Of a DNA stretch of 64,000 bases, positions 13,715 through 35,189 are shown piece after piece; within the stretch, counting starts at the first letter, position 1; each line of letters begins with the position of its first letter. The stretch lies in contig QAZA01000025.1 of assembly GCA_003054695.1 (NCBI GenBank), positions 186,001 to 250,000 on the forward strand, written 5' to 3'. This DNA comes from Verrucomicrobia bacterium LW23 (GTDB lineage Bacteria; Verrucomicrobiota; Verrucomicrobiia; Methylacidiphilales; UBA1321). A program made the translations under genes and the position numbers. Below the pieces are notes generated by a model that had not been told where the DNA came from, did not search any database, and saw nothing but the letters and a program-made list of their open reading frames with translations.

Positions 13715-16700
13715 ATGTTTACAATCTATTTCCGGCAGCTTCGTGGTTCTTGTCTCTCCCGGGCGGTCTGGTGTCTTATCGGTGCCGTTGCTATTGTCGT
13801 TCAGTTTGGATCCAGGATGGCGGCTAATCCTTCTGGTGGCAGTGTTGTGGCTGGGTCTGCAGATATAACCAGCTCAGGCGGCCGGGTTACTGTTAAGCAG
13901 GGGAGTGATCGAGCGATTGTGAACTGGAAAGATTTCTCCGTGGGGCGCAGTGAAGAGGTCAGCTTTGTTCAGCCGTCGTCTCGTTCCGCCGTTCTGAATC
14001 GTGTGACTGGCAGCAGCATGTCGCGGCTGGATGGTACACTGAATGCGAATGGCAGCGTCTATCTTATCAATCGCAACGGTATCGTGATTGGTAAAACGGG
14101 CCGGATCAACGCAGCCGGTTTTACGGCGAGTACCAGCGATGTGGACAATGCGCAGTTTATGCGTGGTGGCAGCCTCAACTTCAGAGGCAGGTCGGACGCT
14201 TCTGTTGTCAATTACGGCAAAATCAGGGCTATCGACGGCGATGTAAGTCTGATTGCGCGGCGGGTGGAGAACCACGGTAAAATCTCGGCGAAACGTGGTC
14301 AGGTGAATCTGGCGGGAGCCACAGAAGTCCTGCTCAAGCCTCAGGGCAGCGGCGGCCAGATGGTTTACATCCAGGGGAAAAGCGATTCGGGCTCGGTTTA
14401 TAACTCGGGTTCCATTCGCGCCACAGCGGTTGAGCTTCGAGCCGCTGGGGGGAATGAGTACGCCTTGGCTGTCAACAACTCCGGCATTATTCGCGCAACC
14501 GCTATCGACAGAAGTGGCGGGCGCATTGTTCTTCGAGCGGAACGGGGATCCGTTCGAAACTCGGGCAGCCTGATCGCCAGGGCTGATCGTCCCGGCCGGA
14601 ATGGGGGCGACATTGTCGTAACCGGCGAGCACGTGCTTCTTACCTCCACGTCAAAAATCGATGCGAGCGGAATGCGCGGCCAGGGGGGGCGGATCAGAAT
14701 AGGCGGAGGTTTCCAGGGCAAGGATTCTTCGGTCTCTAACTCCCGCACTATTACGGTGGAAGCCGGAGCTGAGTTGCGTGCTGAGGGAGGAACCCGGGGA
14801 GGTACGGTCATCGTCTGGAGCGATGGCAACACCAGATTTGCAGGTAACATCCGGGCAGGCGCCTCTGCGCCGAATGGCGGCGGATTTGTTGAGGTAAGCG
14901 GCAAAAGCCTTCTTGAGTTCTGGGGAAATGTGGATACCGGCGGGGGGACCTTGCTGTTGGATCCCGCGAGCATCACGATCAGCACGGATCCCACGTCGGG
15001 AACGCTTGACACAGGTACGGACCCGATTGTTTCGACGATCGACTCTGTCCTTAACGTCGGGGACCTGGTCAACCTGATGCTGGTGAACAATGTTACCCTC
15101 CAGGCAACCGACTTTATCACCGTCGCCACGGCCATTACGTCGACATCCAATAACAACCTGACTTTGGATACGACAACACTGAATCTGCTGGCGCCCATCC
15201 AGCTTGGCTCCGGCACTCTCTCGGGCACTGCCACTGTAGCGAACGTAAGCGGCACGGGCCTTATCCAGAACGCGGTGCATGCGACGTCGACAGTAACGGC
15301 GCCCACAGTAAACGTGGCGGCAGGGACTTATCATGAGCACGATATCGTGATCAATAAGGCCCTCACCCTCAGCGGTGCGGGCAGCGCGAACACTGTGGTT
15401 AATGCGGATCAGGCAGGACGAGTTTTCCGCGTCACCTCTTCGGGGGCTGGAACGGTAATGATTGATGGAATGACGATAACCGGGGGCCTTGCCACCGTAA
15501 CAAGTGTGGGTGTCGCGAATCCACGGGCAGCCGCGGGAGGAGGCATTCTCCTTCACAACGGCGCCAGACTTGTCGTGAGCAATTCAGTCCTCACAGACAA
15601 CGAAGCTCGGGGAACTCCTACAGCAACAGCCCATGCCTTCGCCAGCGGAGGAGCCATCTACGTGGTTGCAGGTGGAAATCTGACAATTGAGAACTCCCAG
15701 ATTACCGGAAACCGGGCTACGTCCTCCAGCACCGTTACCATCGCCGGTAACACAAACTCCTTTGCCTTCGGTGGAGGCATCTACATCGCAAACGGCATTG
15801 CGTCGTCCAGGCTCACGATCTCCGGCAATACTGACATTTCGGGAAACAGCGCGACGGCGGACAGCAGCGCTTCGGCGAACACGGCAAACTCGGTTGCACA
15901 GGGCGGAGGTATCTACCTGGCTGGGGCGGGGATTTTCAACCTGGGTGGATCAAGCATTACTGGTAACTCCGCGGTGGCAAGGAGTTCTGCTTCACCCAGC
16001 ACTGTAGCTACCGCGGAGGGCGGAGGTGTTTACGCGACAGGCGCCGGTACGCTGACCCTTCCCGGAACGCTTGTCAGCAACAACCTGGCTTCCGCGACGA
16101 GCAATGGCACCGGCGTATCCTCCAATGTGAAGGCGAATGTCCATGGAGGCGGCCTGTTCTTTTCGAATGGCAACTACACGATCAGCAACGGCACACAGGT
16201 TAATGGAAATACGGCGACGGCGCGAGCGACGCCGGGCGACGCTTCTGACGCTTACGCTGAATCTTTTGGAGGAGGGCTTTACGCTTTCAACGCTGCAAGG
16301 CTCCAGATCACCGATTCGGAAATCAATACGAATACGGCCGGCGCAACCTCAACATCGGTCTTCGGCCAGACCACGACCACCTACGCGGAAGGAGGCGGCC
16401 TCTATATCCAGAGTGCGGCCGCCGGCACATACTCCATCACTGGCTCTCGCATCTATGGAAACTCCGCAACCGCCGGCAGCTCAAATTCGGCTTCCACCCC
16501 GGTAGATGTCTCCAGTCTGGCAAATGCTTACGGCGGGGGCCTTTATTTCTTCAACGGCGGCACTCTTACAGTATCGAACACCGAAATTGCGGACAACCGC
16601 TCTCATGCGACTGCTTCCGTCGCTACTGGTGATGCGACTACGGATTCCACTGCAAGGGCGGAGGCCTTTGGCGGCGGCGTTTATCTTCAGAACGGCACGT

Positions 16701-18328
16701 TTGTAATATCGTCATCCTCCCTGTACCGCAATGGTGGCGCCGCTGTCAGCAGCAACGGTTCCTCGAATCCCCTGAACGTATCTGAGAATCTGATGATCGG
16801 TGGAGGGCTGGCGGTCGGAACGCTCGACGCCACCCAATCGGTTACGCTTGAGAATGTAACGCTGAACCAGAACGCCGGGCAATACGGCGGTGGCGTCGCA
16901 TGGTTTGGCGATCTGGGGAGCGTTTCTCTCAACAGCGTTACGGTTGCTGGAAACTCGGCGTCCATTCACGGAGGAGGAATCTACCGAGGGAACCCATCTG
17001 GAGCAGCCACAACAGGCGATTTCACGGTTGCGAACTCCATTGTTGCTACAAATGCAAGCGCGACATTTACGGACGGGCCTGACGCTTCCGGCCGGTTCAC
17101 GGATGGAGGCTTCAATCTGATCGGCATTACGGACGGGGCTACAGGTTTTGGCAGCGGCGCGACTCCAAGCGACTCGGCGCTTTTGGGAACTTCCGCCGCT
17201 CCGGTCGATCCGAAACTTACTCCGCTGGGGATGAACGGTGGTACCACCCGCACAATGGCGTTGCAGGCGGGCAGCCCGGCTCTTGACGCGGGCTTTACAA
17301 GCCTTCTTTCCGACCAGCGCGGTATCGCCCGGCCGCAAGGTTCTCAGGCCGATATCGGGGCGATTGAGTCGACGGGGATCCTGTACACGCTGACTTACCT
17401 GGCAACCAGCGGAAGCAATCAGCAGGCCACGCTGGGGCAAGCCTTTGCCCTGCCACTGGTGGTGACGCTTACCGCAGACTTCGGGTTTGACGTAACGGGA
17501 ACGCCCATTTCTCTGCTTGTACCTCTTTCAGGGCCGACTGCTTCGGGCATACTGACACAAACGGTTGATTCGACGGGAATCGCCACATTTTTCCTTACTG
17601 CCGAGGGGGCTGCAGGAACGTTCAACGTGGGGATTTCCGGTGTAAGTCCCTCTCCTCTAACAACATTTTCACTGGAGAATCTGGCCATTCCCCTTTTTAT
17701 TACGCCCGACTTCATTACAAAAACCGTCGGCCAGGCGGATCCGGCGCTCACGTTTACGGTTACGCCGGGCTTGTATGGCAGCGACACGCTTACGGGCATT
17801 CTGGCCGGCAGCCTCTCGCGCACAGCGGGTGAAGGGGCGGGTCTTTACGACATTCTTCAAAACACCCTTGCTCTGCGGTCGTCCGCACTCTCTCGCTACA
17901 CGCTCGCTTTCGCTTCGGGGGCAAACCACTTCAGGATAATGAGTTCTCCGGTGACTCCGCCTCCGGTAACTCCTCCTCCTGACGGAACTCCGGCTGGCCC
18001 CGGCGTGCCCGCACCTGCGGCGTCTGAGTCGCCCGCTAACTCCCCGGATGGGCCGCCCGGGGCTGTGGATTCCACTCCCGGCCCTGCGACCGCTCGAACC
18101 CGGCCCGATTCGCCGAGGATTACGGAATTCAATGCCACACGTGGACGTAACGATACGGAGGATCCACGCCTGCGCAAAAAAGCTGTGCACACGCCCAAAG
18201 TAACCTACGTCGTGCGCCCGTATGTCGTGTCCGAAGACACAGTCCACCACGATTCCAGCTTTAAAGCATTTGCGGACCAGGAAATTCGTACATCTTCCGG
18301 TCGGGGAAAGCCTCGGTCGAAGCGGTAA
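13715..18328 (+). CDS. Large secreted two-partner-secretion-type (FHA-like) beta-solenoid protein
   Basis: A 1537-residue exoprotein. After a long signal region (about residues 1-38) comes a filamentous-haemagglutinin/TPS secretion domain: ITSSGGRVTVKQGSDRAIVNWKDFSVG, VLNRVTGSSMSRLDGTLNANG and VYLINRNGIVIGKTGRINA are the expected carbohydrate-dependent haemagglutination motifs. The middle (about 600-1150) is a right-handed parallel beta-helix with repeated GGGIY/GGGLY and SGNSATA turns. It ends with Ig-like/MBG-type beta domains and a Pro-rich basic tail. No TpsB transporter gene lies in the window. The next gene begins 36 bases later, so the two are probably co-transcribed. Role in adhesion or surface structure is inferred from the family. 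Confidence 0.82.
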   Translation: MFTIYFRQLRGSCLSRAVWCLIGAVAIVVQFGSRMAANPSGGSVVAGSADITSSGGRVTVKQGSDRAIVNWKDFSVGRSEEVSFVQPSSRSAVLNRVTGSSMSRLDGTLNANGSVYLINRNGIVIGKTGRINAAGFTASTSDVDNAQFMRGGSLNFRGRSDASVVNYGKIRAIDGDVSLIARRVENHGKISAKRGQVNLAGATEVLLKPQGSGGQMVYIQGKSDSGSVYNSGSIRATAVELRAAGGNEYALAVNNSGIIRATAIDRSGGRIVLRAERGSVRNSGSLIARADRPGRNGGDIVVTGEHVLLTSTSKIDASGMRGQGGRIRIGGGFQGKDSSVSNSRTITVEAGAELRAEGGTRGGTVIVWSDGNTRFAGNIRAGASAPNGGGFVEVSGKSLLEFWGNVDTGGGTLLLDPASITISTDPTSGTLDTGTDPIVSTIDSVLNVGDLVNLMLVNNVTLQATDFITVATAITSTSNNNLTLDTTTLNLLAPIQLGSGTLSGTATVANVSGTGLIQNAVHATSTVTAPTVNVAAGTYHEHDIVINKALTLSGAGSANTVVNADQAGRVFRVTSSGAGTVMIDGMTITGGLATVTSVGVANPRAAAGGGILLHNGARLVVSNSVLTDNEARGTPTATAHAFASGGAIYVVAGGNLTIENSQITGNRATSSSTVTIAGNTNSFAFGGGIYIANGIASSRLTISGNTDISGNSATADSSASANTANSVAQGGGIYLAGAGIFNLGGSSITGNSAVARSSASPSTVATAEGGGVYATGAGTLTLPGTLVSNNLASATSNGTGVSSNVKANVHGGGLFFSNGNYTISNGTQVNGNTATARATPGDASDAYAESFGGGLYAFNAARLQITDSEINTNTAGATSTSVFGQTTTTYAEGGGLYIQSAAAGTYSITGSRIYGNSATAGSSNSASTPVDVSSLANAYGGGLYFFNGGTLTVSNTEIADNRSHATASVATGDATTDSTARAEAFGGGVYLQNGTFVISSSSLYRNGGAAVSSNGSSNPLNVSENLMIGGGLAVGTLDATQSVTLENVTLNQNAGQYGGGVAWFGDLGSVSLNSVTVAGNSASIHGGGIYRGNPSGAATTGDFTVANSIVATNASATFTDGPDASGRFTDGGFNLIGITDGATGFGSGATPSDSALLGTSAAPVDPKLTPLGMNGGTTRTMALQAGSPALDAGFTSLLSDQRGIARPQGSQADIGAIESTGILYTLTYLATSGSNQQATLGQAFALPLVVTLTADFGFDVTGTPISLLVPLSGPTASGILTQTVDSTGIATFFLTAEGAAGTFNVGISGVSPSPLTTFSLENLAIPLFITPDFITKTVGQADPALTFTVTPGLYGSDTLTGILAGSLSRTAGEGAGLYDILQNTLALRSSALSRYTLAFASGANHFRIMSSPVTPPPVTPPPDGTPAGPGVPAPAASESPANSPDGPPGAVDSTPGPATARTRPDSPRITEFNATRGRNDTEDPRLRKKAVHTPKVTYVVRPYVVSEDTVHHDSSFKAFADQEIRTSSGRGKPRSKR

Positions 18329-21090: not shown

Positions 21091-21882
21091 ATGAAAAAAC
21101 GTAAGACAAAGCCGCTCGTTTCCCCGGAGACTCGAGCAGTTGAGGAGATTCTTGTGAGGTTGCGGCGTTGCGATGCCAGAGGGGTTTATCCTGGGAAAGG
21201 CGAGCTCATCAAGGGCAAAGGCGAGGCGTCTCGAGCGGCCGCTCTCGAGTACCTGGCACGAAGTGGCAAAGTCGTCAATCTGGGCACGCCAGGGGACGGT
21301 GCATTTGCTGAGGTTGTGGGGGGATCTGCGGAGAGCCTGATCGAGCGTAAGGCTTTGGATACCTTGTATAAGATCGGTTCTACCGTTGGATCGCAGCGTT
21401 TCACGCCTGTGTCGGTTGCGGCGCTTGAGGAATTTCCAGGGATTCCACAAAGGGTGAAGAAGCAGCTCAAGAACGTACTCAGCAAGCTTCGAGACAGGAA
21501 CGAGGCCGTGACGTTTAAGGTTGGAAATGCCAATTACTTCCTGCTTCGGGAGACGGTGCTGAAGCATTTTGGGGTAGCCGCCCCATCGCGCGAGATTTCC
21601 GCAGCGCCGGAACCAAGTGTGGCGGGCGTAGCGGCCAAAATCCAAAGCGCCTACAATCGCCTCGCGGCGGAGCGCAAATCGCAGGAAGTGCGTATTGCGG
21701 ACCTGGCCCGGGAGTGCGGTGTTCCTCTGCCGGAGTTTCACGCATGGCTTGAGGAGGCGTGTCGCACATACAAAGCGGTACCTTACGTAGGGGAGCCCAC
21801 GCTGGCCACTCCGGAGGAAAGGCGTACAGCGCTTATACTGAAGGGAGAGGCGTTTTACCAGATCCGCATCCAGGGTGCGTAA
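21091..21882 (+). CDS. Small probable DNA-binding protein of the ATPase/nuclease module
   Basis: A 263-residue protein (MKKRKTKPLVSPETRAVEEILVRL...). The ATG at 21091 is chosen for its basic start. Predicted helices with SVAALEEFPGIPQRVKKQLKNVLSKLRDR (first part shown, winged-helix-like) and a C-terminal helical domain (IADLARECGVPLPEFHAWLEE) suggest two helix-turn-helix units. I do not recognise the family. The next gene starts 18 bases after its stop, so it is the first gene of a three-gene set. A DNA-binding role is inference only. Confidence 0.6.
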   Translation: MKKRKTKPLVSPETRAVEEILVRLRRCDARGVYPGKGELIKGKGEASRAAALEYLARSGKVVNLGTPGDGAFAEVVGGSAESLIERKALDTLYKIGSTVGSQRFTPVSVAALEEFPGIPQRVKKQLKNVLSKLRDRNEAVTFKVGNANYFLLRETVLKHFGVAAPSREISAAPEPSVAGVAAKIQSAYNRLAAERKSQEVRIADLARECGVPLPEFHAWLEEACRTYKAVPYVGEPTLATPEERRTALILKGEAFYQIRIQGA

Positions 21883-21899
21883 GCGCAAGAGGGACCCCT

Positions 21900-23945
21900 A
21901 TGCCAACCGCCACATCCTCCGCAACCCGAGCGAACCCGTTCGAGGATTCCATCGTTACCGAGCCCAGACTTGTGGAGCAGACGAATCCTGCGCTTAACAA
22001 GGAGGCGTTTGATGACATTTGCAGGGCGTTTCGCAACGTGCAGGAGCAGCCAGTTCCACGTCTGCGCGCGGAGTATCCTATCTTCCTGATGACTTCGCCG
22101 GAGGCCGGATTTGGGAAGTCGCATCTTATTGGGCGGCTGTTTCAAGCCTTGGATGATGACGCAACGCTGATCTACCTGCGCCCCTTTCAGGATCCGGAAA
22201 CGCGCTGGCGCAACATTCTCAGTAAGATTGTCAAGGAGCTGGACTACCCGGATCGCCCCGACGCTATCGCGTGTAAACCAGGTGAACCTACCCAGATGGA
22301 TGCGCTCGTTTGCTCCGTGCTGGCTCACCTGCTGGCCTCCGGGCTGGAGAACGACACCCTGGAATCGTCCGAGAACAAGGACGAATTGATTGCGGAGCTT
22401 CGCAAATCGCCCCTGGCCCTGCAGAAGCCGGATCAGACCGCGTTGCTTGCCACAACGTACGATGACATGCTGGACAAGCTGGACGGGGAATTGCAGCGAA
22501 CCGGCGTTCAACTCAATGCCAGCCGCAGGGCGTGGCTCAAGATCCTCTTCCATTACCTCAAATCGGCCGGAAACCCCTCCGCCAGAGCGCTTTGCCTGAG
22601 CTGGATAGAGGCTCAGCCCATGGAAAGGGAAGAGCTTGCGGAGATCGGTCTTCGCCTGGCCGACGGACCCGACGCCGATGCTTCCTCTGTGGAACGTAAC
22701 GAGATGGCGTTTCAGCGCATTTGCGATCTTTGCCGGCTGTCCGCCTTCTACCGCCCGTTCCTGTTTTGCTTCGATCAAACCGAGCTCTATGATCGCGGTC
22801 CCGAGCTTGCTCACGCTCTGGGCAACGTGCTCTCACGGTTGCGGAGAGAGTCCGTCAATCATCTGACACTTGTCACGGCAAATGTGGATACATGGGAAAA
22901 ACAGCTGTTCGTCCACTTTGAGAACGCCGACCAGCATTGCTTCCAGTCGCAACCGGTACGCTTGAAGGGGGTGCAGCGGAAGGAGGCAGAGGAGATTGTG
23001 GCTGCGAGGCTCAAAAATGTTGGGCAGGATCCTGGCGAGATCGCCAGCTTTCTGCGTAAGCCCTTCTTCAACAAATTGTTTGAGTATCAGCAGGATCGCA
23101 GTATTCGAGCGGTGCTGAAGGCCTGCGCTACCGCCTGGTCGCCCCATACGAGGCCCGATATGCATAAGCTGTTGCAGTCGTATGTGTTGAGTGTCAAGAA
23201 GATGCCGAAGGGCCTCGACTTTGACGCCGGCATGCTGGAGTGGGCCTATACGGACGTTTTACCGCTCGCATCCGGATTCTCCCTCGATCCTTCCTGGCGC
23301 AGCGCACGTGGATATCTCACCCTGCGATGGAACAATCCCAGCGCCCACCACATCCATCTCTTTTGCTTTGAGGAGAAGGGCAACTACATGCGTTGGAAAG
23401 CAATTCTCGGCGAATCCGACCGCTACTTCCAGCAGGCGCGCAAGAGCCAGGACGACGCGAGCACCCTCTACTTTCGCACACCTGCGCAGAAGCCGTTTGG
23501 GAGCAAGGTTGACCAGGTGCTCAAGGCGAACTCCCAACACATTAAGCCGATCCAGCTCGCACCCGACGACGTTGCAGCTCTGTACGGCGCACATGATTTC
23601 TTTGCTGATGTGAAACAGGGCAATCACGCAGGCATTACGGAAGTACAGGTGCTGCAGTTCCTGGGGGATTACTTCAAGCCAAATGTGGAACGCTTCTACG
23701 TGCCGATCCCAGGTCCAGGCCCGGGAGGCGGTCCAAAATTGCCGCCACAAGCGCTCCTTGACGCAATCCTGAGCTCCGTAGGCACCGGCGAGTTCATTCC
23801 CTGGCCGACAATGAAGAAGCGGCTTGCCGATCTTAAGTTTGGCTCGACGCGCGAGGAAGTGATCTCCGCATGTCGCCACCTTGCGGCAGATATCCGCGTC
23901 TTTATTGGCCCCAGCAACGCCGTTTTCCGCCGATGCACCAAGTAG
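21900..23945 (+). CDS. AAA+/STAND-like P-loop ATPase of the three-gene module
   Basis: A 681-residue protein. The ATG at 21900 precedes MPTATSSATRANPFEDSIV. The P-loop is TSPEAGFGKSHLIGRL (about residues 64-80); a Walker B-like segment FLFCFDQTELYD has DQTE in place of DE; LTLVTANVDTWEK resembles the sensor-1 strand. The C-terminal half is helical and ends with a winged-helix-like segment. The ATPases of BREX and similar defence systems share this style of P-loop, but I cannot assign it to a named family. It overlaps the next gene by 13 bases, so translation is coupled. Confidence 0.65.
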   Translation: MPTATSSATRANPFEDSIVTEPRLVEQTNPALNKEAFDDICRAFRNVQEQPVPRLRAEYPIFLMTSPEAGFGKSHLIGRLFQALDDDATLIYLRPFQDPETRWRNILSKIVKELDYPDRPDAIACKPGEPTQMDALVCSVLAHLLASGLENDTLESSENKDELIAELRKSPLALQKPDQTALLATTYDDMLDKLDGELQRTGVQLNASRRAWLKILFHYLKSAGNPSARALCLSWIEAQPMEREELAEIGLRLADGPDADASSVERNEMAFQRICDLCRLSAFYRPFLFCFDQTELYDRGPELAHALGNVLSRLRRESVNHLTLVTANVDTWEKQLFVHFENADQHCFQSQPVRLKGVQRKEAEEIVAARLKNVGQDPGEIASFLRKPFFNKLFEYQQDRSIRAVLKACATAWSPHTRPDMHKLLQSYVLSVKKMPKGLDFDAGMLEWAYTDVLPLASGFSLDPSWRSARGYLTLRWNNPSAHHIHLFCFEEKGNYMRWKAILGESDRYFQQARKSQDDASTLYFRTPAQKPFGSKVDQVLKANSQHIKPIQLAPDDVAALYGAHDFFADVKQGNHAGITEVQVLQFLGDYFKPNVERFYVPIPGPGPGGGPKLPPQALLDAILSSVGTGEFIPWPTMKKRLADLKFGSTREEVISACRHLAADIRVFIGPSNAVFRRCTK

Positions 23946-26110
23946 CCCTGAGCGTTTCGCAACTTCGTTGCGCCTGTGTCAGTCCCGAGTGGCGAGAGGA
24001 TTATCTGGCCGGCGGCAAGCCGTCGACATTCTCCTTCGGCAGCGGCGTTGCCGTCCACGGCGCCGCGTTTCACCGAATCGCCGAGGACTTTATCGACTGG
24101 GCGCTGCATCCCTCTTATTCGCGTGAGGCTGACCAGCTTGACGACGAGTCTTCCATCGCCCGAAAGATGCAACATCTGGGAGGCGAGGAACTCATCGAAA
24201 AGTTGCTCCACCAGGGCGAGGTAGATTCCGCTGCCCTGGTGGGCGAGGCCATGTTCAATTTTGCACGCAGGCTTGTGCAGCTGCGCCAGGCGCGCCGGTC
24301 GTTTGCCTCCTGGGGTGAGATATTCCTTTCCCAGGAGGTCACCATCTCCAACGTGCTGGTGTATGGCGGCGGCGAAGGCGCTGTGTTTGTCTCCGGCAAG
24401 CTCGATTCCCTGCGCATTCACCCCAACGGCCAGTTGGAAATCGTCGATTACAAGCTATCCCACGGCTCCGAGATGGAGAAAGAGCTGGTGCAGATCGCCA
24501 TCTACCGCAAGCTCCTGGAGCAAACGCGACGCGGGTTTCGCTACCGGGGGTGCCTGGAGTATTTCCTGCCCGAGCTGGTGACGCAGGAGCTGGATCCGGA
24601 CGACCTCGATGCGATCTACGAGAAGTGGGTGACGCCCACGCTGCCGCTTTTGCTGCCACAGCAACAGGCAAAGGCGACGCCCGTTACGGTGCCTGCCGCA
24701 ACCAGCTTAACGCCCACTCCAGAGCCAGACGCGGCCAAGCCTCCGAAGGAGCAGAAGCCCCCATCCAGTGCAGATTCACCTTCTGCCTCAGGTCCCTCCG
24801 CAGCAACCTCCGCCTCCGCTCACGATACGAAGCCGCTATGCCTGGGCAAGGGGATCGGCCTTGCATCGCAGCCCGTCACCCTGGACGCGGAGCAGCTCAA
24901 ACGGCACTCCGCCTTCCTCGGCGGCGCCGGCAGTGGCAAGACGACACTGGCCCTTCTGCTTATCGAGCAACTTCTGGAACGCGGAATCCCCGCCGTGTTA
25001 CTCGATCGCAAAGGCGATTTGTGCCGCTATGCCGATCCGGACGCCTGGGCGACGCCCCCCGGAGCCGGCCCGGATGCCGAGTCCCCCAGTCGCCGAAAAA
25101 AGCTTCGCGACTCGCTCGACATCCGCCTCTACACGCCGGGAAGCCCCGCCGGCCGGGAGCTCACCATCAATCCGGTGCCGGATGGCATCATGGATCTCCC
25201 TCCCTATGAACGCGATACGCTTCTCAAAAGCTCGGCGGCGGCACTTGGCGGCATGCTGAACATCACCAAAGCCGGTGATCCTCGAATCCCCATCCTGGCG
25301 CAGGCCTTCCGCCTGCTCACCACCCACCGCCCTCAGGAACGCGTCTCACTTCAGACTCTCATTGAGTTTATCGGCTCGGGCGATCCCTCGCTCCAGGAGG
25401 CGATCGGCGTTATCGACAAGAAGCACTGCGCCAAGCTGGCCGAGAATCTGCAAACTTTTGATCTCATGCAGGGGCACCTGCTCAGCGGCAGCGCATCATC
25501 ATCCTCCACCCATCGCGGCGCTCCGGCGGCGGAGGAACTCAACGCGGAACTCCTCCTCGGCAGAGGTCAGCACGCCATTCCGGGGCAAACCCGGCTTTCC
25601 ATCGTCAGCACCAAGTTCCTCGGCGACAAAGAGACGACTCTCTTCTGGGTCGCGCAGCTGCTCATCGAGCTTAACCGGTTCGCCAGTCGCAATCCGTCCG
25701 CCACCCTGCAGGGAGTGCTCCTCTTTGACGAGGCCGATATGTACCTGCCGGCCATCGCCAAGCCCGCCACCAAAGAGCCCATGGAGAACCTCCTTCGGCG
25801 CGCGCGCTCCGCCGGGCTTGGCGTCATGCTGGCCACCCAAAGCCCCGGCGACCTGGACTACCGCTGCCGCGAAAACGTCCTCTCCTGGTTCATCGGCCGC
25901 GTCCAGCAGCCCACCGCCCTGGAGAAGCTCCGCCCGCTGCTACAAGACAGCGGAATCGCCCAGGAAAAGATCGCCTCGCAATCCGTCGGCCAGTTCCATT
26001 TCGTCGATGAATCCGGCGCGCGACCTATCAAAACGGACCGCAACCTCGTCTCCACCGAACAATTGCCGGAGGAGCGCATAGTGTACCTGGCGCATGCGCA
26101 AAGGAGCTGA
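23933..26110 (+). CDS. PD-(D/E)XK nuclease fused to HerA/FtsK-like ATPase
   Basis: A 725-residue two-domain protein. Residues about 1-235 are a RecB/Cas4-like PD-(D/E)XK nuclease: GKLDSL, then LEIVDYKLSHG (the D and ExK-type positions), then QIAIYRKLLEQ. A Pro/Ser-rich linker follows (about 240-300). Residues about 305-725 are a HerA/VirB4-like ATPase: Walker A GGAGSGKTTLALL, VLLDRKGDL, Walker B GVLLFDEADMYLPA, and the motif RSAGLGVMLATQSPGDLDY. It overlaps the preceding ATPase gene, forming a three-gene operon, and ends 178 bases before cas3. HerA-nuclease pairs are common in anti-phage systems; the defence role here is inference. Confidence 0.78.
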   Translation: MHQVALSVSQLRCACVSPEWREDYLAGGKPSTFSFGSGVAVHGAAFHRIAEDFIDWALHPSYSREADQLDDESSIARKMQHLGGEELIEKLLHQGEVDSAALVGEAMFNFARRLVQLRQARRSFASWGEIFLSQEVTISNVLVYGGGEGAVFVSGKLDSLRIHPNGQLEIVDYKLSHGSEMEKELVQIAIYRKLLEQTRRGFRYRGCLEYFLPELVTQELDPDDLDAIYEKWVTPTLPLLLPQQQAKATPVTVPAATSLTPTPEPDAAKPPKEQKPPSSADSPSASGPSAATSASAHDTKPLCLGKGIGLASQPVTLDAEQLKRHSAFLGGAGSGKTTLALLLIEQLLERGIPAVLLDRKGDLCRYADPDAWATPPGAGPDAESPSRRKKLRDSLDIRLYTPGSPAGRELTINPVPDGIMDLPPYERDTLLKSSAAALGGMLNITKAGDPRIPILAQAFRLLTTHRPQERVSLQTLIEFIGSGDPSLQEAIGVIDKKHCAKLAENLQTFDLMQGHLLSGSASSSSTHRGAPAAEELNAELLLGRGQHAIPGQTRLSIVSTKFLGDKETTLFWVAQLLIELNRFASRNPSATLQGVLLFDEADMYLPAIAKPATKEPMENLLRRARSAGLGVMLATQSPGDLDYRCRENVLSWFIGRVQQPTALEKLRPLLQDSGIAQEKIASQSVGQFHFVDESGARPIKTDRNLVSTEQLPEERIVYLAHAQRS

Positions 26111-26288
26111 AGTTTCTCCGAAGCGGAATGATGTTGCCGATCGTCGCGTTCACAATCCCCTGGTACGGTGAAACAGAAATTTTGGGAGGGACTACGGATG
26201 TCCCTCCCCCATGATATTATTGGGCACTAAGGTAATTCAATTTTCGCAAAATGCCTGCCGATCTTCCTCCCCAAAACTACGATCCTTG

Positions 26289-28991
26289 ATGAGCGCACCT
26301 GATTTTTCATCTCTTTTTACGGTGTTGACGGGCAGGGCGCCGTTTCCCTGGCAGGAGGCCTTGTACAAGCGTTTTGTGACAGACACCATCGCGGAGCGCT
26401 TTCCTGCGTGTTGCGATCTTCCCACCGGGCTGGGCAAGACGTCCGTCGTCGCGGTATGGCTTATTGCGCTTGCGCTTTATCCCGACAGGGTGCCACGCCG
26501 GTTGGTCTACGTGGTCAACCGGCGCACGGTGGTGGATCAAACCACGGATGAGGTGGCCAGGCTGCGGGCCAACCTTGAAGCCCTGCCGGAGCTTGGGGTG
26601 ATCCGTGAGCGGCTTGCGCGACTTTGCGCGATTGCCGTGGAAGGTTCGCCGCTGGCGATCAGCACGTTGCGCGGCCAGTTTGCGGATAATCAGGAATGGT
26701 CCGCCGATCCCTGCCGCCCCGCGGTCATTACGGGGACGGTGGACATGATCGGGAGCCGGCTGCTCTTCAGTGGCTATGGCATCGGCTATAAAATAAGGCC
26801 GCAGCACGCGGGCTTTCTTGGGCAGGATGTTCTGCTGGTGCATGATGAGTCGCATCTGGAGCCCGCATTTCAGGCGTTGCTTGATGCCGTGAGGGTGGAG
26901 CAGCGCAGGGACTTTCCCGAGCAGCGGCGCCTTAAAGTCATGCAGCTTTCCGCCACGACACAGAATGCCGGCGGCGGCCCGGGTGAATCTGCGACAGGCG
27001 GGCCGGTGTTCCGCCTTACTCCGGCGGACGAGGAGCATCCTGAAGTTGTACGACGCCTGACCTCCGTCAAGATGTTGCACCTGCATGAGAATGCTGACGG
27101 GAAGAAGCTGGCCGAGGAACTGGTCGCCCTCGCGCTGCGCCACAAAGAATCGCAGCAGACTGTTGTGATTTTCGTCCAGTCGCTTGATCTTGTACACAAG
27201 ACCGTGGAGGGACTGAAACGGCAGCAGCCGAAGCAGGTCATCGCCCTTACCGGGACAATGCGAGGTCTGGAACGGGATCGCCTTGCCGCGAGGGACCCGA
27301 TTTTCCGGCGCTTTCTGCCCACACCACCGCCGACGGGCGACGCCGCGGACGCAGGCAGCGAGACTTCCGGCACGGTATATCTTGTATGCACAAGCGCCGG
27401 CGAGGTCGGCGTCAATATCTCGGCGGATCATCTTGTGTGCGACCTCTCCACCTACGAGAGCATGGCGCAGCGCCTGGGGCGCGTCAACCGCTTCGGGCTC
27501 CGCAGCGACACGCGGGTGGATGTTGTCTACCCCTCCGTGTTTGACGCTGCCTCAGAACTGGATCACCGCCGGCAACTGACGCTTGGGCTGCTCCGGCAGC
27601 TCAACGGCGATGCCAGTCCGCGGGCGCTGGGCCTGCTGCCGCCCGAGCTTCGGAGCCAGGCGTTCCGTCCGCCTCCGCGGATTCCCGAAGTGTCGGATAT
27701 TCTCTTTGATGCATGGTCCCTCACAACCATCCGCGGCGAACTCCCCGGGCGGCCGCCGGTGGAGCCCTGGCTGCACGGCATTTCGAACGAAACACCGCAG
27801 ACCCACGTGGCATGGCGCGAGGAAGTGGAGGTCATCACACCGGACCTGACGGCGTTTTATCCCCCCGAAGACCTGCTCGAAACCTATCCGCTAAAACCGC
27901 ACGAGTTACTGCAGGATAGCTCCGACCGCATCCTTGGCGAGCTCGGCAGCCTGGTACAGCGTAGACCCAGTCTCGCCGAGAAGCCCGTGTGGCTGGTGGA
28001 CAGTCAGGGAACTGTCGAGGTCATCACCTTTGGCAGTATTGTTGACCGGGAGGCGACTCCGGCCGCCCGCCAGGCGAGAATCAAGAGCAAGACACTGCTT
28101 CTGCCGCCCCAGGCCGGCGGGCTCGATCCGCAGACTGGCATGCTGGACAGCAAATCGGACTGGGCTGATGACGTTGCTGACTTGTGGGGGACGGATGGCC
28201 CCGGCGGGACGCAGCTTAGCCAGCGCCGCAAGCGCGTATGGGACCCCGAGCATGCGGATCATCCGCCCAAAGATATGCGGACCATCCGCGTCATTGATCT
28301 CCAGCCGACTCCTCAGGACAGCGAAACCGAATCGGATGACACCGACGAGGGAAGCGAAGAGCGCCAGCCGCCGCCTCGGCGATGGTACTGGTACGAAACA
28401 CCCCGTTCGGCCGCGGGACAGGCCACCGCATCTGCGAGAAAAGCCGTTCTGCTTCAAACACATACGGACGACGTGACGCGGAACATGCGCAGCATCGCCG
28501 CCAAACTGGCCTTTCCCGAGCCCATGCAGCGGGCGCTGATCCTCGCGGCGCAATGGCACGACCTTGGGAAGGCCCGGCCGCACTGGCAGCGCAGCATCGG
28601 CAACTTCGGCACACTGGTCCTGGGCAAATCGGCGTCGCGGGCGATGGACATGTCGATGCTCGATGACTACCGCCATGAATTCGGCTCCCTGCTCGATGTC
28701 CGGCGCAATGCGGAGTTTTGCGCGCTGCAGGACGACCTGAAAGATGTTGTGCTTCACCTCATCGCCACCCATCACGGCCGTGGCCGGCCTCACTTTCCAT
28801 CGCCGGAAATCTTTGATCCTGAAGTAAACAGCACAGAAGCAACCGCTGCTGCGCAGGAAGTGCCGCTCCGCTTCGCCCGGCTTCACCGCCGCTACGGGCG
28901 CTGGGGCCTCGCCTGGCTCGAATCCCTCCTGCGCGCAGCCGACCAGAACGCCAGCGCCAGGCCCTCGCAGTTTGTGGAGGACAATGTATGA
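26289..28991 (+). CDS. cas3: Type I-G (I-U) CRISPR-associated helicase/nuclease Cas3, HD domain C-terminal
   Basis: A 900-residue helicase-nuclease that degrades target DNA after Cascade binding. The ATG at 26289 precedes MSAPDFSSLFTVLTGRAPFPWQ, the usual N-terminus of this subtype. Helicase motifs: Walker A DLPTGLGKTSVV (Lys 50), DEAH-box variant VLLVHDESHLEPAF, motif III QLSATTQ, and motif VI-like YESMAQRLGRVNRFG. The HD nuclease domain is at the C-terminus (AAQWHDLGKARPHWQ, YRHEFGSLLD, LIATHHGRGRPHF), the arrangement typical of type I-U/I-G rather than other type I systems. Its stop overlaps the start of csb3 (ATGA), so the effector genes are coupled. Confidence 0.9.
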   Translation: MSAPDFSSLFTVLTGRAPFPWQEALYKRFVTDTIAERFPACCDLPTGLGKTSVVAVWLIALALYPDRVPRRLVYVVNRRTVVDQTTDEVARLRANLEALPELGVIRERLARLCAIAVEGSPLAISTLRGQFADNQEWSADPCRPAVITGTVDMIGSRLLFSGYGIGYKIRPQHAGFLGQDVLLVHDESHLEPAFQALLDAVRVEQRRDFPEQRRLKVMQLSATTQNAGGGPGESATGGPVFRLTPADEEHPEVVRRLTSVKMLHLHENADGKKLAEELVALALRHKESQQTVVIFVQSLDLVHKTVEGLKRQQPKQVIALTGTMRGLERDRLAARDPIFRRFLPTPPPTGDAADAGSETSGTVYLVCTSAGEVGVNISADHLVCDLSTYESMAQRLGRVNRFGLRSDTRVDVVYPSVFDAASELDHRRQLTLGLLRQLNGDASPRALGLLPPELRSQAFRPPPRIPEVSDILFDAWSLTTIRGELPGRPPVEPWLHGISNETPQTHVAWREEVEVITPDLTAFYPPEDLLETYPLKPHELLQDSSDRILGELGSLVQRRPSLAEKPVWLVDSQGTVEVITFGSIVDREATPAARQARIKSKTLLLPPQAGGLDPQTGMLDSKSDWADDVADLWGTDGPGGTQLSQRRKRVWDPEHADHPPKDMRTIRVIDLQPTPQDSETESDDTDEGSEERQPPPRRWYWYETPRSAAGQATASARKAVLLQTHTDDVTRNMRSIAAKLAFPEPMQRALILAAQWHDLGKARPHWQRSIGNFGTLVLGKSASRAMDMSMLDDYRHEFGSLLDVRRNAEFCALQDDLKDVVLHLIATHHGRGRPHFPSPEIFDPEVNSTEATAAAQEVPLRFARLHRRYGRWGLAWLESLLRAADQNASARPSQFVEDNV

Positions 28992-29818
28992 CCAGGACCA
29001 CAAGCCACATTCGCATTGATGTAGATCCGGCCAATCCCGGCCAGTACTTTGCCTGCTGCGGCCTGCTGGAGCTCGCGTCACGGCTGCAGGCTGCGACAGG
29101 CGCATCGGGCTGGTTTGAAGATGGCGCCTTTTGCCTGGCGACGGGGCTAAGCCTTGAGGAACTGATCGGCGCTGTCGGTAGAATCAGTCTGGTGCAGGTG
29201 GACCCCGACGATGGTACGGCGTCGCCAATCCTGATGAAATACGCGCCCGAAATCGGCGCCCCGCCCGTGCCGGGCACAGATCCGTTCGAACTGCTTCTCA
29301 ATTGGTGGAAGTCGGACGATCGCGCGATTACGGACCTGAAAGTCTGGGCCGGCACCATGGACAGTTACCGCATTGCGCGGGCCATGCAGTCCGCCATCCG
29401 CGACAAGCAGTTCTTCCAGCCGAATCTCCTGGATGTTGGCACCATCGCCTACGATCCGGACGAGCCGACCAAGAAGGTGGAGCCCTACTACTTTGACGCC
29501 CGGCGCGCTCCCAACGCCCACTCCCGGGATGTCGGCTTTGCTCCCAATGACCTTGGCATGACGACAACAGCCTACCCTGCCGTCGAGTTCCTCTGCTTCG
29601 TCGGTCTGCAGCGCACCAAGCCGGTGCCGGCGGATCCCGAGCGTCCCCGCATTTTCCGTTACCACCTGTGGTATCAGCCGCTAGACGCCCTGCTCCTGCC
29701 CGCGGCGACGGCCGGGCTCCTTCCCGGCCAGCGCGGGTACGAGTTTGAAAGCATGTTCCGCACGGGCCAGAAGAAGCACAAAGCATTTCAGGCCGCCATG
29801 TCCAAATCTGTCTCCTGA
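28988..29818 (+). CDS. csb3: Type I-G CRISPR effector subunit Csb3
   Basis: A 276-residue protein. The N-terminal signature IRIDVDPANPGQYFACCGLLELA is characteristic of the Csb3/Cas8u2-like subunits of type I-U/I-G systems; positions 111-130 (NWWKSDDRAITDLKVWAGTM) also match the family style. It probably acts as the large or Cas8-like subunit of the effector complex. The start overlaps the cas3 stop by four bases; csb1 follows after 39 bases. The assignment rests on motif memory and position. Confidence 0.8.
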   Translation: MTRTTSHIRIDVDPANPGQYFACCGLLELASRLQAATGASGWFEDGAFCLATGLSLEELIGAVGRISLVQVDPDDGTASPILMKYAPEIGAPPVPGTDPFELLLNWWKSDDRAITDLKVWAGTMDSYRIARAMQSAIRDKQFFQPNLLDVGTIAYDPDEPTKKVEPYYFDARRAPNAHSRDVGFAPNDLGMTTTAYPAVEFLCFVGLQRTKPVPADPERPRIFRYHLWYQPLDALLLPAATAGLLPGQRGYEFESMFRTGQKKHKAFQAAMSKSVS

Positions 29819-29857
29819 ACGAAAAAACCTTGCTACCGTCACCTCACCCCCACTCTC

Positions 29858-30928
29858 ATGAGCAACACGACTACATTCGATTACCTGCTGTCCGACGAAG
29901 GACCTGCCGCGCTTGTTATCCGCCAGCACCTTGTACCGGTTGAAGGGGCTGATGGCGTATTGTTTCCATCGACGTATGCCGCCGGTGACGGTTTTCCCGG
30001 CGGGTACAACATCGACGAATTTCCCAATGGCCGGAACATCTGCCTGATCGACAGCGTAGGTTCACAGGCCAATCGCATCGAGCCCATCTTCATGGAAGAG
30101 AAATACCAGCATCTGGTTCCGCAGATCACGGTCAGAGCCGGAGAGAAAACCGTCAACCTGCTGGAGGCAGGCCATCGCGCGGGCGACGCCATTGTCCGGT
30201 GCACCACTTTAAAGGAGGAGTTTCAAAGTGCCTTCAAAGCATCCCTTAAGGGAGATGCGACGCCGATGGCGAAACTCGCCCCCACGTCCCTTGTCTTCGG
30301 CGTATGGGACTCCCGCGATACACAGGCGAAGCTTCCCCGGCTCGTCTCCTCCACCATCCGCGCCTACAATGTGCGCAAACTCAAGCGCTCCGCGCAGTAT
30401 GTACCTGCTGCGGAGTACATTGCATCGGGATTGCTGGAAGAGCCCGCGGACAAGAAGCTGAAGGATGCCTACTCCGAGCGCGGCTTTATCCATGTACCCG
30501 CCACCGGCGCGCCGGGCGGCGTCATCGCGGAAGGAGGCGTACGCCGCGACGCCACGCTCTCCCTGGCCGCGCTGCGGCTGCTGAACGCGAAGGATACCGA
30601 ATCTACCGTAAAACTCCGGCGCTACATCCTCGGCCTTGCGCTGACGGCCTTTACGCGACCCCCGACGGGTTACCTGCGCCAGGGCTGTTTGCTCGTGCTG
30701 GATCCGGCACCCGCCGTACCCAACGAATTCGTCGAGGTGTTTTCGACAGGCGAGCGTAAGCCGAGCTCCATCACCCACAGCGATGCTCTGGCCTATGCCA
30801 CCGCCTCCGCCGCGGAGTTTGGCGTCGGGGAAAGCCGCACTGCGGATTTTGAGAAAGAGAAGGCGAAGCAGGACATCGCAGGAGACGCGGACACGAAGAC
30901 GAAGCCCAAGAAGGCCAAGGCTACCTGA
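29858..30928 (+). CDS. csb1: Type I-G CRISPR backbone protein Csb1 (Cas7 group RAMP)
   Basis: A 356-residue protein of the GSU0053/Csb1 family, the Cas7-like subunit expected to form the filament along the crRNA. Visible features: FPSTYAAG...GYNIDEFPNGRNICLIDSVGSQANRIEP near the start, LVFGVWDSRDTQAKLPRLVSS in the middle and a Lys-rich tail. Length agrees with the family (~300-360). It lies in the order cas3-csb3-csb1-csb2, with csb2 starting seven bases after its stop. Confidence 0.87.
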   Translation: MSNTTTFDYLLSDEGPAALVIRQHLVPVEGADGVLFPSTYAAGDGFPGGYNIDEFPNGRNICLIDSVGSQANRIEPIFMEEKYQHLVPQITVRAGEKTVNLLEAGHRAGDAIVRCTTLKEEFQSAFKASLKGDATPMAKLAPTSLVFGVWDSRDTQAKLPRLVSSTIRAYNVRKLKRSAQYVPAAEYIASGLLEEPADKKLKDAYSERGFIHVPATGAPGGVIAEGGVRRDATLSLAALRLLNAKDTESTVKLRRYILGLALTAFTRPPTGYLRQGCLLVLDPAPAVPNEFVEVFSTGERKPSSITHSDALAYATASAAEFGVGESRTADFEKEKAKQDIAGDADTKTKPKKAKAT

Positions 30929-30935
30929 GTCGTTT

Positions 30936-32567
30936 ATGACGAAATACCTGAGTATCGCCGTCCGGTTCCTGCAGGGAATGTATCACGGCCGGGCCGACGG
31001 GGGGGAGCCGGAGTGGCCGCCTTCGCCATTGCGCCTCTTCCAGGCCCTGGTTGCCGCTGCAGCGGCACGTGCCAACGAGCGCGAACTCCTCCAGTCCGGC
31101 GCGCCGGCGCTTCTGTGGCTGGAGGACCAGGCGCCTCCTCTCATTGTAGCCCCGGCGATCCGCGTCGGCGCCAAGTACAGGCTCTATGTCCCCGACAACG
31201 TCACCGATCTCGTGGCAAAATCGTGGGCGCGCGGCAACGACGCAAACATCACCGACTACCGCACAGAGAAGGATGTGCGCCCCACGCACATCATGGCGGG
31301 CCATGCCGAAGATCGGGCTGCTACTGGCGATGCGATCCATTATCTGTGGTCCATCGCCGACGACGAGGGGACTTTGCCGGCGCAGTTGGAGGCTCTCGAG
31401 AAGATTGCGCGCTCGGTCACCCACGTGGGGTGGGGTGTCGACCAGGTCGTGGCTCACGCGCAAATCCTTACCAAAGAAAGCGTTGCGGCGCTTTCGGGCC
31501 ATCGGTGGATACCTGTGGAATCCCCCTCCGACTTCTCACTCCGCGTCCCGTGCCGGGGCACGCTGCGCAACCTTGGCCGCAAGCACACGGCATTTCTCGG
31601 CCGCGCTGGCAGGGATACATTTCGTCCTGTTCCCCCGCTTTCCACATTCTCTGTCCAGCATTATCAGCCGGATACGCAACTCGCCCCATCCCCATTCGCC
31701 GCTTTCGGCCTGCTGCAAAACGATGCGGAGGCATACTGCATATTCGATACTGCCCGCCGGGGCCTGCAGGTAGCCGGCATGATGCGTCATGCGGCGAGCC
31801 ATTCCACCATCGCCACATCCCTTGGCTGGACCCAGGAGAAAGTGGGGCAGCTCATCCTGGGCCATGCCGAACCCGAGGGCTCGCCGCACATCCCTGTTGA
31901 CGGGCACCGCATCGCATTCCTTCCACTGCCCAGCCTGGAGAGTCGCGGCGGGAAGAGCAAGGTCCGCACCGTCGGCGCCATCCGCCGCGTCCTTGTCGCC
32001 GGGCTGCGGGGCATTTCCCAGCAGGAAATCAGCGCCCTCGCTCAACGTCTTGCCAACCAGCATCTCATCGACGAAGCCTCCGGAAAACCGGTTGCGCTCC
32101 TCTCCCGGCTTCCAAGGAATGAGAGCATGGTTTGCGAGTACACAAGGCCTTCTGCGACCTGGGCTACGGTAACTCCTGTTATCCTGCCCGGCTTTGATGA
32201 TCCCGGCAAATACCGCCGGCGCCTCGGCGGCTCCGCCGAAGACTCGGCCGTTACGTCAAAAGAGCAACGGCGCATCCTGGAAAAACTCGACTCCCGCGTC
32301 GAGAACCTCCTGCGCAAGGCCATCCGCCAGGCAGGCTATTCTGAAGAACTCGCCACCCACGCCGGGCTGGAGTGGAGAGCGACGGGATTCCTCCCCGGCG
32401 CGGACCTTGCCACGCGCTACCACGTACCCGAAAAATTCCGCCGTTTCCGCCGCGTCCACGTCCGCATTACCTGGAGCGACCGCCGAGGAAACCAGGTCTC
32501 CCTCCCCGGCCCCATCTGTCTCGGGCGCGGCCGCTTTAGCGGGCTGGGGCTATTTGCGGCCATTTAG
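30936..32567 (+). CDS. csb2: Type I-G CRISPR protein Csb2 (Cas5-Cas6 fusion)
   Basis: A 543-residue protein of the GSU0054/Csb2 family, combining a Cas5-like domain (crRNA 5' handle) and a Cas6-like domain (pre-crRNA processing). The ATG at 30936 precedes MTKYLSIAVRFLQGMYHGR, the standard N-terminus with a trailing PEWPPSPLRLFQALVAA; the open frame extends upstream only because it shadows csb1. The C-terminus ends with VHVRITWSDRRGNQVSLPGPICLGRGRFSGLG (Gly-rich RAMP loop). It is the last gene of the cassette. No cas4-cas1, cas2 or repeat array follows. Confidence 0.87.
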   Translation: MTKYLSIAVRFLQGMYHGRADGGEPEWPPSPLRLFQALVAAAAARANERELLQSGAPALLWLEDQAPPLIVAPAIRVGAKYRLYVPDNVTDLVAKSWARGNDANITDYRTEKDVRPTHIMAGHAEDRAATGDAIHYLWSIADDEGTLPAQLEALEKIARSVTHVGWGVDQVVAHAQILTKESVAALSGHRWIPVESPSDFSLRVPCRGTLRNLGRKHTAFLGRAGRDTFRPVPPLSTFSVQHYQPDTQLAPSPFAAFGLLQNDAEAYCIFDTARRGLQVAGMMRHAASHSTIATSLGWTQEKVGQLILGHAEPEGSPHIPVDGHRIAFLPLPSLESRGGKSKVRTVGAIRRVLVAGLRGISQQEISALAQRLANQHLIDEASGKPVALLSRLPRNESMVCEYTRPSATWATVTPVILPGFDDPGKYRRRLGGSAEDSAVTSKEQRRILEKLDSRVENLLRKAIRQAGYSEELATHAGLEWRATGFLPGADLATRYHVPEKFRRFRRVHVRITWSDRRGNQVSLPGPICLGRGRFSGLGLFAAI

Positions 32568-32913: not shown

Positions 32914-34698
32914 TTATCCCTGCACGGATTCCCAACTTAACCCAAAGCGAATCAAATACTTGCGAAGCCGGTCTGCATCGTTGGGCTGGCGTCGCCTGGT
33001 GCGGGAGATGGCGAAAAGGGCGCGGCCGGCGTCGGAGATGGTGCGGCTTTGGCGGCACACGTGGATAACGTGTTGCAGTTGAGCAAGATCGAAGGAGTCA
33101 AGATTTTCCGGGTCTACCCCATCGGGCAGGGGCAGGGGAAGATCGGGACGCGTAACAGTCTGGCTTGCAACAATTTCAGCTGCTTCTGCTTGTACGCGCT
33201 CGGCTGTTCTCCCACTGTCCGTGCCCTCGTCCTGACACTCCGCTCCCCGCCCGAGGGTGCTGCCGGGCACCGCCCATTTGGCGCGCAGCCGTTCGATTTC
33301 CTGGTCCACAACCTCCACGGTAATGCGGCCGGCGCGGGAGAAGGTGGACATGCGCACCACGCTGGCGTTCAGGTCACGGAAATTGGCGCTCCATGTGGCT
33401 TCCCGGCCGGTGGCAAAGGCCAGGTAGCGATCGCGGGCCTCCTTGTTAAAGGCGACGCGGTCGCCGCCGGCGCGGGCGAGCTTTTCCAGCTCAAAATCCA
33501 GGTTGGGCTCGATATCCTCGGCCCGCTCGCGCAGGCCGGGCAGGCGGAAGGTCCACAGGTCGATACGCGCGAGCAGGTCCTCGCGAAAGCGCCCCTCGGC
33601 CACGTCGCGCTGCAGGTCGCGGTTGGTGCCGGCAATCAGCTGGAAGTTGCTGGCCACTTCGCGATCCGCGCCGAGGGGCAAGAAGAGGCGCTCCTCCAGG
33701 GCGCGCAGCAGCATCGCCTGCTCGTCGCAGCCGAGCTCGCCGATTTCGTCCAGGAACAGCAGGCCGCCGTCGGCCGCCTTCAGCAGGCCGGGGCGGTCGC
33801 GCATGGCTCCGGTAAAGCTGCCTTTGATGTGGCCGAAGAGCGTCGACATGGCCGCGTCGCCGCGAATGGTTGCGCAGTTAATGCTCACAAACTCGCCGGT
33901 CACCAGCCGCTTTTGCTTGCGCAGCTCGTACACTTTGCGGGCCATGTGCGATTTGCCGGCACCGGTCGGCCCGGTCAGCAGCATAGGGTCGCGCGATGCA
34001 AGTGCCACGCGCTCCATCTGTTCGATCAGCGCGTTAAAGGAGGCGCTGCGCGTGCTTATGCCGCTTTTGAGCAGGGAGACGCTCTCCTCCTTCTCCTGAT
34101 GAAACCGCGTTGCCAGCCTGTCGTACCGGGAGAGATCGAGGTCGATCAGCGAGTAGGTGCCGACGGAATCTTCCCCGCGCAGGCTGGGGGAGGTCTGCAG
34201 GAGAATGCCTGGGATGTAGCGCGCTTCCGTCAGCAAAAAGAGGCAGATTTGGGCGACATGCGTGCCTGTGGTAATGTGCACCGCGTAGTCCTCCGTCTCC
34301 GGCGAGAAGGGGTAGCCGCGCGCGAAGTCGAGCAGCGCACCATAGACTTCTTCGAAGTCCCACGGGTCAACAAACTCTATATAGTGGCTGCGCACGGTTG
34401 TCTCCGGCGAGACTTGCGCGATGTCGGCGCGAACCTGTGTTGCAATCTTCTCAAAGCGTTGCTGATAAAGTACTTCGAACCGGCTGACGAGCAGTTCCTC
34501 GTGCTGGCACAATGCCACGGAGGGGCGCCACATGTTCCACCGATCCGGCCCGGTGGAGCGATCCAGTTGCGGCCCGAGCAGCCCGATGACGACCAGCTTT
34601 TTGGTGGAGGCCCGGCGCGTCTCCTTCGGAGCGGGCACGGCTGATCGGTGCGAGGGGGATTTCCAGTGTCGGTTTTGCTTGCCGGTTTTCTCTGCCAT
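32914..34698 (-). CDS. rtcR: RtcR, sigma-54-dependent activator of the RNA repair operon
   Basis: A 594-residue regulator. The N-terminal sensor domain (about 30-200, KKLVVIGLLGPQLD ... AVHITTGTHVAQICLFLLTEARYIPG) matches the RtcR N-terminal domain, which belongs to the CARF superfamily and in other bacteria responds to RNA ligands such as broken tRNA. It is followed by an AAA+ sigma-54 interaction domain (Walker A LTGPTGAGKSHMARKV; the GAFTGA loop reads GSFTGA; Walker B LLFLDEIGEL) and a C-terminal DNA-binding region. It is ~60 residues longer than the E. coli protein, mostly at the N-terminus and in the linker near 470-520. Transcribed divergently from ro60, whose sigma-54 promoter at 34868 is its expected target. 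Confidence 0.92.
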   Translation of the reverse strand: MAEKTGKQNRHWKSPSHRSAVPAPKETRRASTKKLVVIGLLGPQLDRSTGPDRWNMWRPSVALCQHEELLVSRFEVLYQQRFEKIATQVRADIAQVSPETTVRSHYIEFVDPWDFEEVYGALLDFARGYPFSPETEDYAVHITTGTHVAQICLFLLTEARYIPGILLQTSPSLRGEDSVGTYSLIDLDLSRYDRLATRFHQEKEESVSLLKSGISTRSASFNALIEQMERVALASRDPMLLTGPTGAGKSHMARKVYELRKQKRLVTGEFVSINCATIRGDAAMSTLFGHIKGSFTGAMRDRPGLLKAADGGLLFLDEIGELGCDEQAMLLRALEERLFLPLGADREVASNFQLIAGTNRDLQRDVAEGRFREDLLARIDLWTFRLPGLRERAEDIEPNLDFELEKLARAGGDRVAFNKEARDRYLAFATGREATWSANFRDLNASVVRMSTFSRAGRITVEVVDQEIERLRAKWAVPGSTLGRGAECQDEGTDSGRTAERVQAEAAEIVASQTVTRPDLPLPLPDGVDPENLDSFDLAQLQHVIHVCRQSRTISDAGRALFAISRTRRRQPNDADRLRKYLIRFGLSWESVQG

Positions 34699-35189
34699 GT
34701 CGACGTTATACTAGCTATAGAGCGCAGAGGCTAGCATATAAGATAGGTACTCCACTTCGTCAGATTTCTGCCAACGCCCGCTCAATACAGTTCTCCCTCT
34801 CCGCGTACTTTTTCAAGCCTCTTATTATGAATGAGTTAGCGATGCAGAAATGCAAGTTCTCAAAAGTTGGCACGCTTTCTGATTACATACAAAACAGAAC
34901 ATCGTCGCATCAATGCAACGACGGGATAAGCGGGAAACCAACCCTAGACGGAAAAGAAAAACATCGCAAACGTGTAAGACAATTTCTTCACCCCGCGATC
35001 TCCTCCTTACCCATTAATGCCTGAGGCGAAGTTCGCAAAAACCCACGACAGGTACTCAGTAACTGCAGTAAAGCATGGATCCGCACGGAATGCCCGGAAG
35101 CATTCCATATAGCAAAATCAAAAGCAGACAAAAGAAGGAAGGATCCCTCTGCATTTAACGCGGTCATCTGGTCCGAAAGGAATACTCCC
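34699..35189. other. Divergent control region and long 5' leader of ro60
   Basis: 491 bases between rtcR and ro60. It holds the sigma-54 promoter at 34868-34883, so the predicted ro60 leader is about 300 bases. In the leader a hairpin CGTCG...CGACG near 34905 and a 7-bp hairpin GGAATGC-CCGGAA-GCATTCC near 35091-35110 are visible. The second resembles the AATGCC motif of the downstream Y-like units, but the stems that define those units are missing. No protein gene is supported. Confidence 0.6.
34868..34883 (+). promoter_or_regulatory. Sigma-54 (-24/-12) promoter for ro60 and the RNA array
   Basis: TGGCACGCTTTCTGAT matches TGGCACG-N4-TTGCW with a perfect -24 box and a weaker -12 box (CTGA instead of TTGC). 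The GG and the -12 G have the required 10-base spacing. It points toward ro60 and lies next to the divergent sigma-54 activator gene rtcR, as in known rtcR-controlled RNA repair operons. Confidence 0.7.

Follow-up and report, generated by a model that had tools for sequence, protein, structure and literature searches.

Three intact genes, here called A, B, and C, occupy positions 21091 to 26110 on the plus strand of a 64,000-nucleotide stretch of the Verrucomicrobia bacterium LW23 genome (the window, by which we mean the whole stretch of DNA analyzed). The genes overlap or nearly touch, with a gap of 17 nt between A and B and with the start codon of C, an ATG at 23933, lying 13 nt inside B. 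The features of the three genes and of the gene cluster that follows them are as listed here.

21091 to 21882, plus strand: gene A, encoding a fast-evolving, predicted DNA-binding protein of 263 aa with three winged-helix domains (translation, AF2)
21900 to 23945, plus strand: gene B (ATG at 21900), encoding a 681-aa predicted ORC/Cdc6-clade AAA+ ATPase with an REase-like insert and a C-terminal winged helix (AF2, Foldseek)
21999 to 23150, plus strand: AAA+ core of B (residues 34 to 417), with Walker A GFGKSH and the motif FCFDQTE
23160 to 23699, plus strand: REase-like alpha/beta domain of B (residues 421 to 600; secondary structure, weak Foldseek match, family alignment)
23748 to 23933, plus strand: C-terminal winged helix of B (residues 617 to 678; AF2 model)
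23933 to 26110, plus strand: gene C, encoding a 725-aa protein with a PD-(D/E)XK nuclease, a Pro/Ala-rich linker, and a HerA motor
23951 to 24574, plus strand: RecB/Cas4-like nuclease domain of C, of predicted active type (PDDEXK_1 match, conserved sites)
24800 to 26107, plus strand: HerA motor of C (HerA_C, DUF87, and mad8 matches, motif positions)
26211 to 32567, plus strand: type I-G effector genes cas3g, cas8g2, cas7g/csb1, and csb2 (NCBIfam), a neighbor outside the conserved module

Elsewhere in the window, positions 13715 to 18328 encode a 1,537-aa predicted secreted protein that, on inspection of its sequence, is like filamentous hemagglutinin-type exoproteins. On the other side of the module lies an RNA-repair region (32914 to 42552) with RtcR on the minus strand, a Ro60-type vWA protein (35190 to 36818), three tRNA genes (36901 to 37496), RtcB (38435 to 40195), and an RtcA cyclase (41473 to 42552), along with further T-loop-like repeats at 37884 and 38222.

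Protein A was predicted by AF2 (34 sequences, pLDDT 88) to consist of three winged helices in a row, at residues of about 11 to 78, 79 to 160, and 175 to 263, and each of the three units matched winged-helix proteins. Relatives of A are 16 to 30% identical to the window protein, with a mean column identity of 26%. A is fast evolving and, by its predicted fold, a DNA-binding protein.

The AF2 model of B, built with 35 sequences (pLDDT 88.7, pTM 0.82), places this protein in the ORC/Cdc6 clade of AAA+ ATPases. Compared with solved structures, the model matched archaeal Cdc6 (1fnn_A) with a Z score of 14.8 over 240 residues at 4.0 Å, in a tie with the transposition ATPase TnsC (Z score, 14.7). 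Many eukaryotic ORC rows also appeared in this comparison, several with alignments that reach residue 681. The top Foldseek row was yeast ORC (5zr1_D; E, 4.1e-4); a search of the solved structures with the sequence of B alone found nothing. Walker A of B lies at residue 70 and FCFDQTE at residue 289, and the letters DQTE are invariant among the 35 aligned sequences. Between the AAA+ core and the winged helix, residues 421 to 600 form an alpha/beta domain with an REase-like order of elements, and in the search with the whole of B this part gave a weak Foldseek row to EcoT38I (7e8r; probability 0.90, E of 0.07). No conserved D...(D/E)xK site was found for this domain in the family alignment, and the inserted domain, as modeled, is probably dead.

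The nuclease domain of C matched PDDEXK_1 (E, 1.9e-9) and was weakly Cas4-like (PADLOC; E, 0.0097), and the motor domain matched HerA_C (E, 4.9e-11), DUF87 (E, 9.7e-11), and the PADLOC model for mad8 (9.6e-17). Motifs of the motor include Walker A GSGKTT at residue 333, LLFDEAD at residue 596, and ATQS at residue 634; a long stretch separates Walker A from Walker B, and C gave no FtsK_alpha match. Seven residues of the nuclease domain (H47, E135, D158, D172-x-K174, and Q187xxxY191) make up, as read from the sequence, the site expected of an active-type RecB/Cas4-like nuclease. The first-pass annotation had described a small DNA-binding-like protein, a P-loop ATPase with a DQTE motif, and a fusion of a RecB/Cas4-like nuclease with a HerA-like motor, encoded by overlapping or nearly touching genes at 21091 to 26110; its coordinates were right, all three descriptions agree with the domains found here, and its idea of a DNA-recognizing, translocating nuclease is supported as well.

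To place the trio among its relatives, loci were drawn from a search of genomes near LW23, from their neighborhoods, and from a GTDB scan with the B alignment, and they were re-read with iterated profiles; some of them end at contig edges. The same succession of A, B, and C was found at about 45 distinct loci in at least six phyla (Verrucomicrobiota, Acidobacteriota, Thermodesulfobacteriota, Nitrospirota, Planctomycetota, and Pseudomonadota), so the gene arrangement is not due to chance, and in some of these loci B and C are fused. Across the relatives' loci, no conserved fourth gene or neighbor family was found beside the trio, and we therefore take the three genes to be the unit. Defense models were matched by proteins of 14 families, one protein each, among 106 proteins flanking the relatives' modules, a small, raw count. 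Within the phylum, 16 of 388 Verrucomicrobiota genomes had a match to the B profile at an E value of 1e-10 or lower, a count that includes several weak, partial matches, and there was no match in 11 other searched genomes of LW23's family. B homologs were likewise not found in collections of phages, plasmids, and viral contigs. The distribution is patchy, as is that of mobile defense genes, a likeness that alone proves nothing. Stand-alone B homologs of about 25% identity, with A and C not detected nearby, are present in the same order as LW23 (L032:7938-10007, L033:8013-10034, and L034:7263-9293).

The seven nuclease residues and the motor appear, from the aligned sequences, to be selected together and kept or lost jointly, because none of the seven is altered in any of the 40 motor-bearing C rows (38 distinct, as two pairs are from the same genomes), whereas five of the seven are changed in the motorless C of two genomes (L051 and L052, which are identical to L022 and L021, respectively). 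Exceptions in the opposite direction are L029 and L084, where the ATPase is fused to FtsK and no nuclease was detected. The motorless C genes (L051:11959-12810 and L052:12043-12810) adjoin intact A and B genes.

The motor itself varies, and in most relatives of the trio it is FtsK. Full A-B-C loci with HerA are limited to the window, L047 (Verrucomicrobiota), and L048 (Acidobacteriota); the C protein of L048 is 46% identical to that of the window over its full length, and the HerA-motor form found in LW23 is rare among the relatives. In a maximum-likelihood tree of B, these three loci fall in one group (support, 100/99) beside FtsK-bearing groups, a topology consistent with a single motor replacement. 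Replacement of FtsK by HerA is the likely direction rather than a proven one, because the deep forks of the B tree are weakly supported. A third motor type is found in L036 and L135, where a nuclease of the same family is followed not by FtsK or HerA but by a motor of the RuvB type that includes the C-terminal winged helix of RuvB (genes at L036:4510-7926 and L135:5510-7309, with B at L135:3468-5528; RuvB_C E values of 1e-13 and 5e-18, respectively). In another genome (G322), a different ORC-like ATPase is fused directly to a HerA domain that is 47% identical to the window HerA (L130:7341-10490), and no PD-(D/E)XK domain was found in this chain. The G322 HerA domain is a possible donor or recipient in motor exchange.

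Neither A nor B has a meaningful family in Pfam, NCBIfam, or PADLOC. The first-pass annotation had called the system possibly unnamed, which still holds for the PADLOC and NCBIfam models, but a class of this kind was predicted in 2024 by Rakesh, Aravind, and Krishnan (NAR; PMC10853773, section 22) under the heading of ORC/CDC6-coupled HerA/FtsK capture systems. As the class is outlined in that section, an ORC/CDC6 AAA+ protein carries an inactive REase between its AAA+ core and a C-terminal wHTH and is joined by an active REase, a HerA/FtsK motor, and an extra protein with 2 to 4 wHTH units; the active REases are of two families, and the HerA type is without FtsK-alpha and has a 4-helix insert. 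The trio shares the ORC/CDC6-family AAA+ protein (from the predicted structure of B), the position of the REase-like domain, an REase of apparently active type in C, a motor in the same operon (HerA here, FtsK in most relatives), and a multi-wHTH protein, A, with three units. We consider it probable that the trio belongs to this predicted anti-invader class, as a rare HerA form that would load on invader DNA, pump it, and cut it. An RuvB motor is not mentioned in the text of PMC10853773, nor does that text report an experimental test of the class, and no experiments on the class were found in a search of mainly open-access journal papers.

An unlikely alternative is that the three proteins form a DNA repair or end-resection complex, in which A and B would be the loaders and which would act on broken chromosomes much as archaeal HerA-NurA does. 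The HerA_C/DUF87 and PDDEXK_1 matches of C would suit such a role, and the HerA-NurA machine also has a HerA translocase working with a nuclease; in C, however, the nuclease is a PD-(D/E)XK domain of the RecB/Cas4 type that is fused to HerA, and the partners are A and B. The patchiness within the phylum and the family counts against repair, because a repair function is expected to be more widespread, and the rapid change of A and the exchange of the motor for FtsK or RuvB also speak against it.

We regard as quite improbable the idea that the trio serves for restriction in a modification-based system resembling Dnd, Ssp, or MADS, with the protective mark made by genes elsewhere in the genome. 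DndFGH (DptFGH) is like the trio in having a wHTH protein, a P-loop protein, and an REase-HerA/FtsK protein, with “captured” motors, but according to PMC10853773 the eight domains of DndH, which is about 1,700 aa long, include TRDs and an inactive methylase, whereas C has 725 aa and two domains. SspFGH also comprises three genes, with a Walker A protein and a third protein with an FtsK-like C terminus (PMC8092258), but it is coupled to phosphorothioation by SspBCD. None of the three proteins matched the DndF/G/H or SspF/G/H models of PADLOC and NCBIfam. The FtsK-type relatives do match SspH at about 1e-60, but housekeeping FtsK matches it at 2e-58, and a phosphorothioate (Ssp) link by way of the SspH score was dropped because housekeeping FtsK scores equally high. 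In MADS (mad1 to mad8), the HerA-like mad8 resembles the motor of C, but A is marginal to mad1 (E, 0.026) and B matches none of the set. A PADLOC scan of the locus for mad1 to mad8 returned only mad8, through the C motor, and the five neighbors scanned are the type I-G cas genes and rtcR. Because mad8 and SspH match the motor alone, membership in neither MADS nor Ssp follows. Apart from the marginal mad1 score, the Dnd, Ssp, and MADS models gave no match to A or B, and no conserved modification gene is present in the flanks examined near the trio.

It is very improbable that the trio is part of a mobile element, in which B would select targets as a TnsC-like ATPase and the module would serve DNA transfer or integration; TnsC does tie with Cdc6 as a fold match for B, but no neighbor family is conserved beside the trio, and B went unmatched in the phage, plasmid, and viral-contig searches.

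The CRISPR neighborhood was also considered, since cas3g lies on the same strand and its called start is about 100 bp beyond the end of C. The first-pass annotation had pointed to adjacent CRISPR effectors, and type I-G genes do adjoin the module in the window, but this linkage is local and uninformative, as no cas genes were found among the 106 proteins flanking the relatives' modules (PADLOC, E values of up to 1e-10). Adaptation genes were not seen near the effectors at 26211 to 32567, and no CRISPR array was seen between window positions 12000 and 40000. The sole Cas1 match in the genome (Pfam) is a 642-aa frame on contig C28 with an N-terminal part that is Cas4-like by inspection, and no direct repeats were found in the 12 kb around it. 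That the trio assists the neighboring type I-G system, for example as a Cas4-like adaptation or target-degradation module, is extremely improbable despite the shared strand, the short spacing, and the weak Cas4 likeness of the nuclease, as none of the 106 flanking proteins matched a cas model and the genome already has an apparent Cas4-Cas1 fusion on another contig. CRISPR linkage of the trio was rejected on these grounds and on the lack of an array in the region searched, and the best reading of the arrangement is that of two defense loci lying next to each other.

We return to the trio as a probable member of the ORC/CDC6-coupled HerA/FtsK capture class, for which a defense role is inferred. 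The gene order, the domains, the intact catalytic residues, their conservation, and the exchange of motors are seen in the sequences and predicted structures, and with them we propose a course of events. The three winged helices of A, together with the winged helix and the REase-like fold of B, would bind a particular invader DNA or DNA structure. As an AAA+ switch similar to ORC, Cdc6, and TnsC, B would then assemble with ATP on the bound DNA and load C. C may assemble as a ring of HerA motors pumping duplex DNA, with the attached PD-(D/E)XK domains making cuts as the DNA is drawn in; such a machine would be comparable to HerA-NurA but would carry both the nuclease and the motor on a single chain.

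More tentatively, we speculate that one conserved chassis (a triple-wHTH protein, an ORC/Cdc6 protein with an REase-like insert, and a PD-(D/E)XK nuclease) may take FtsK, HerA, and RuvB motors interchangeably and may lose its nuclease activity without a motor. The choice of motor might then decide what invader or DNA structure comes under attack, and protection might be possible without any self-marking DNA modification. The locus in LW23 provides an intact, compact three-gene example, with a rare motor, of the class predicted in 2024. With the natural swaps among FtsK, HerA, and RuvB and with the motorless, nuclease-broken form, the contribution of the motor to an anti-invader nuclease becomes testable, as does the way in which such a system, with no modification gene conserved beside it, would spare the DNA of its host.
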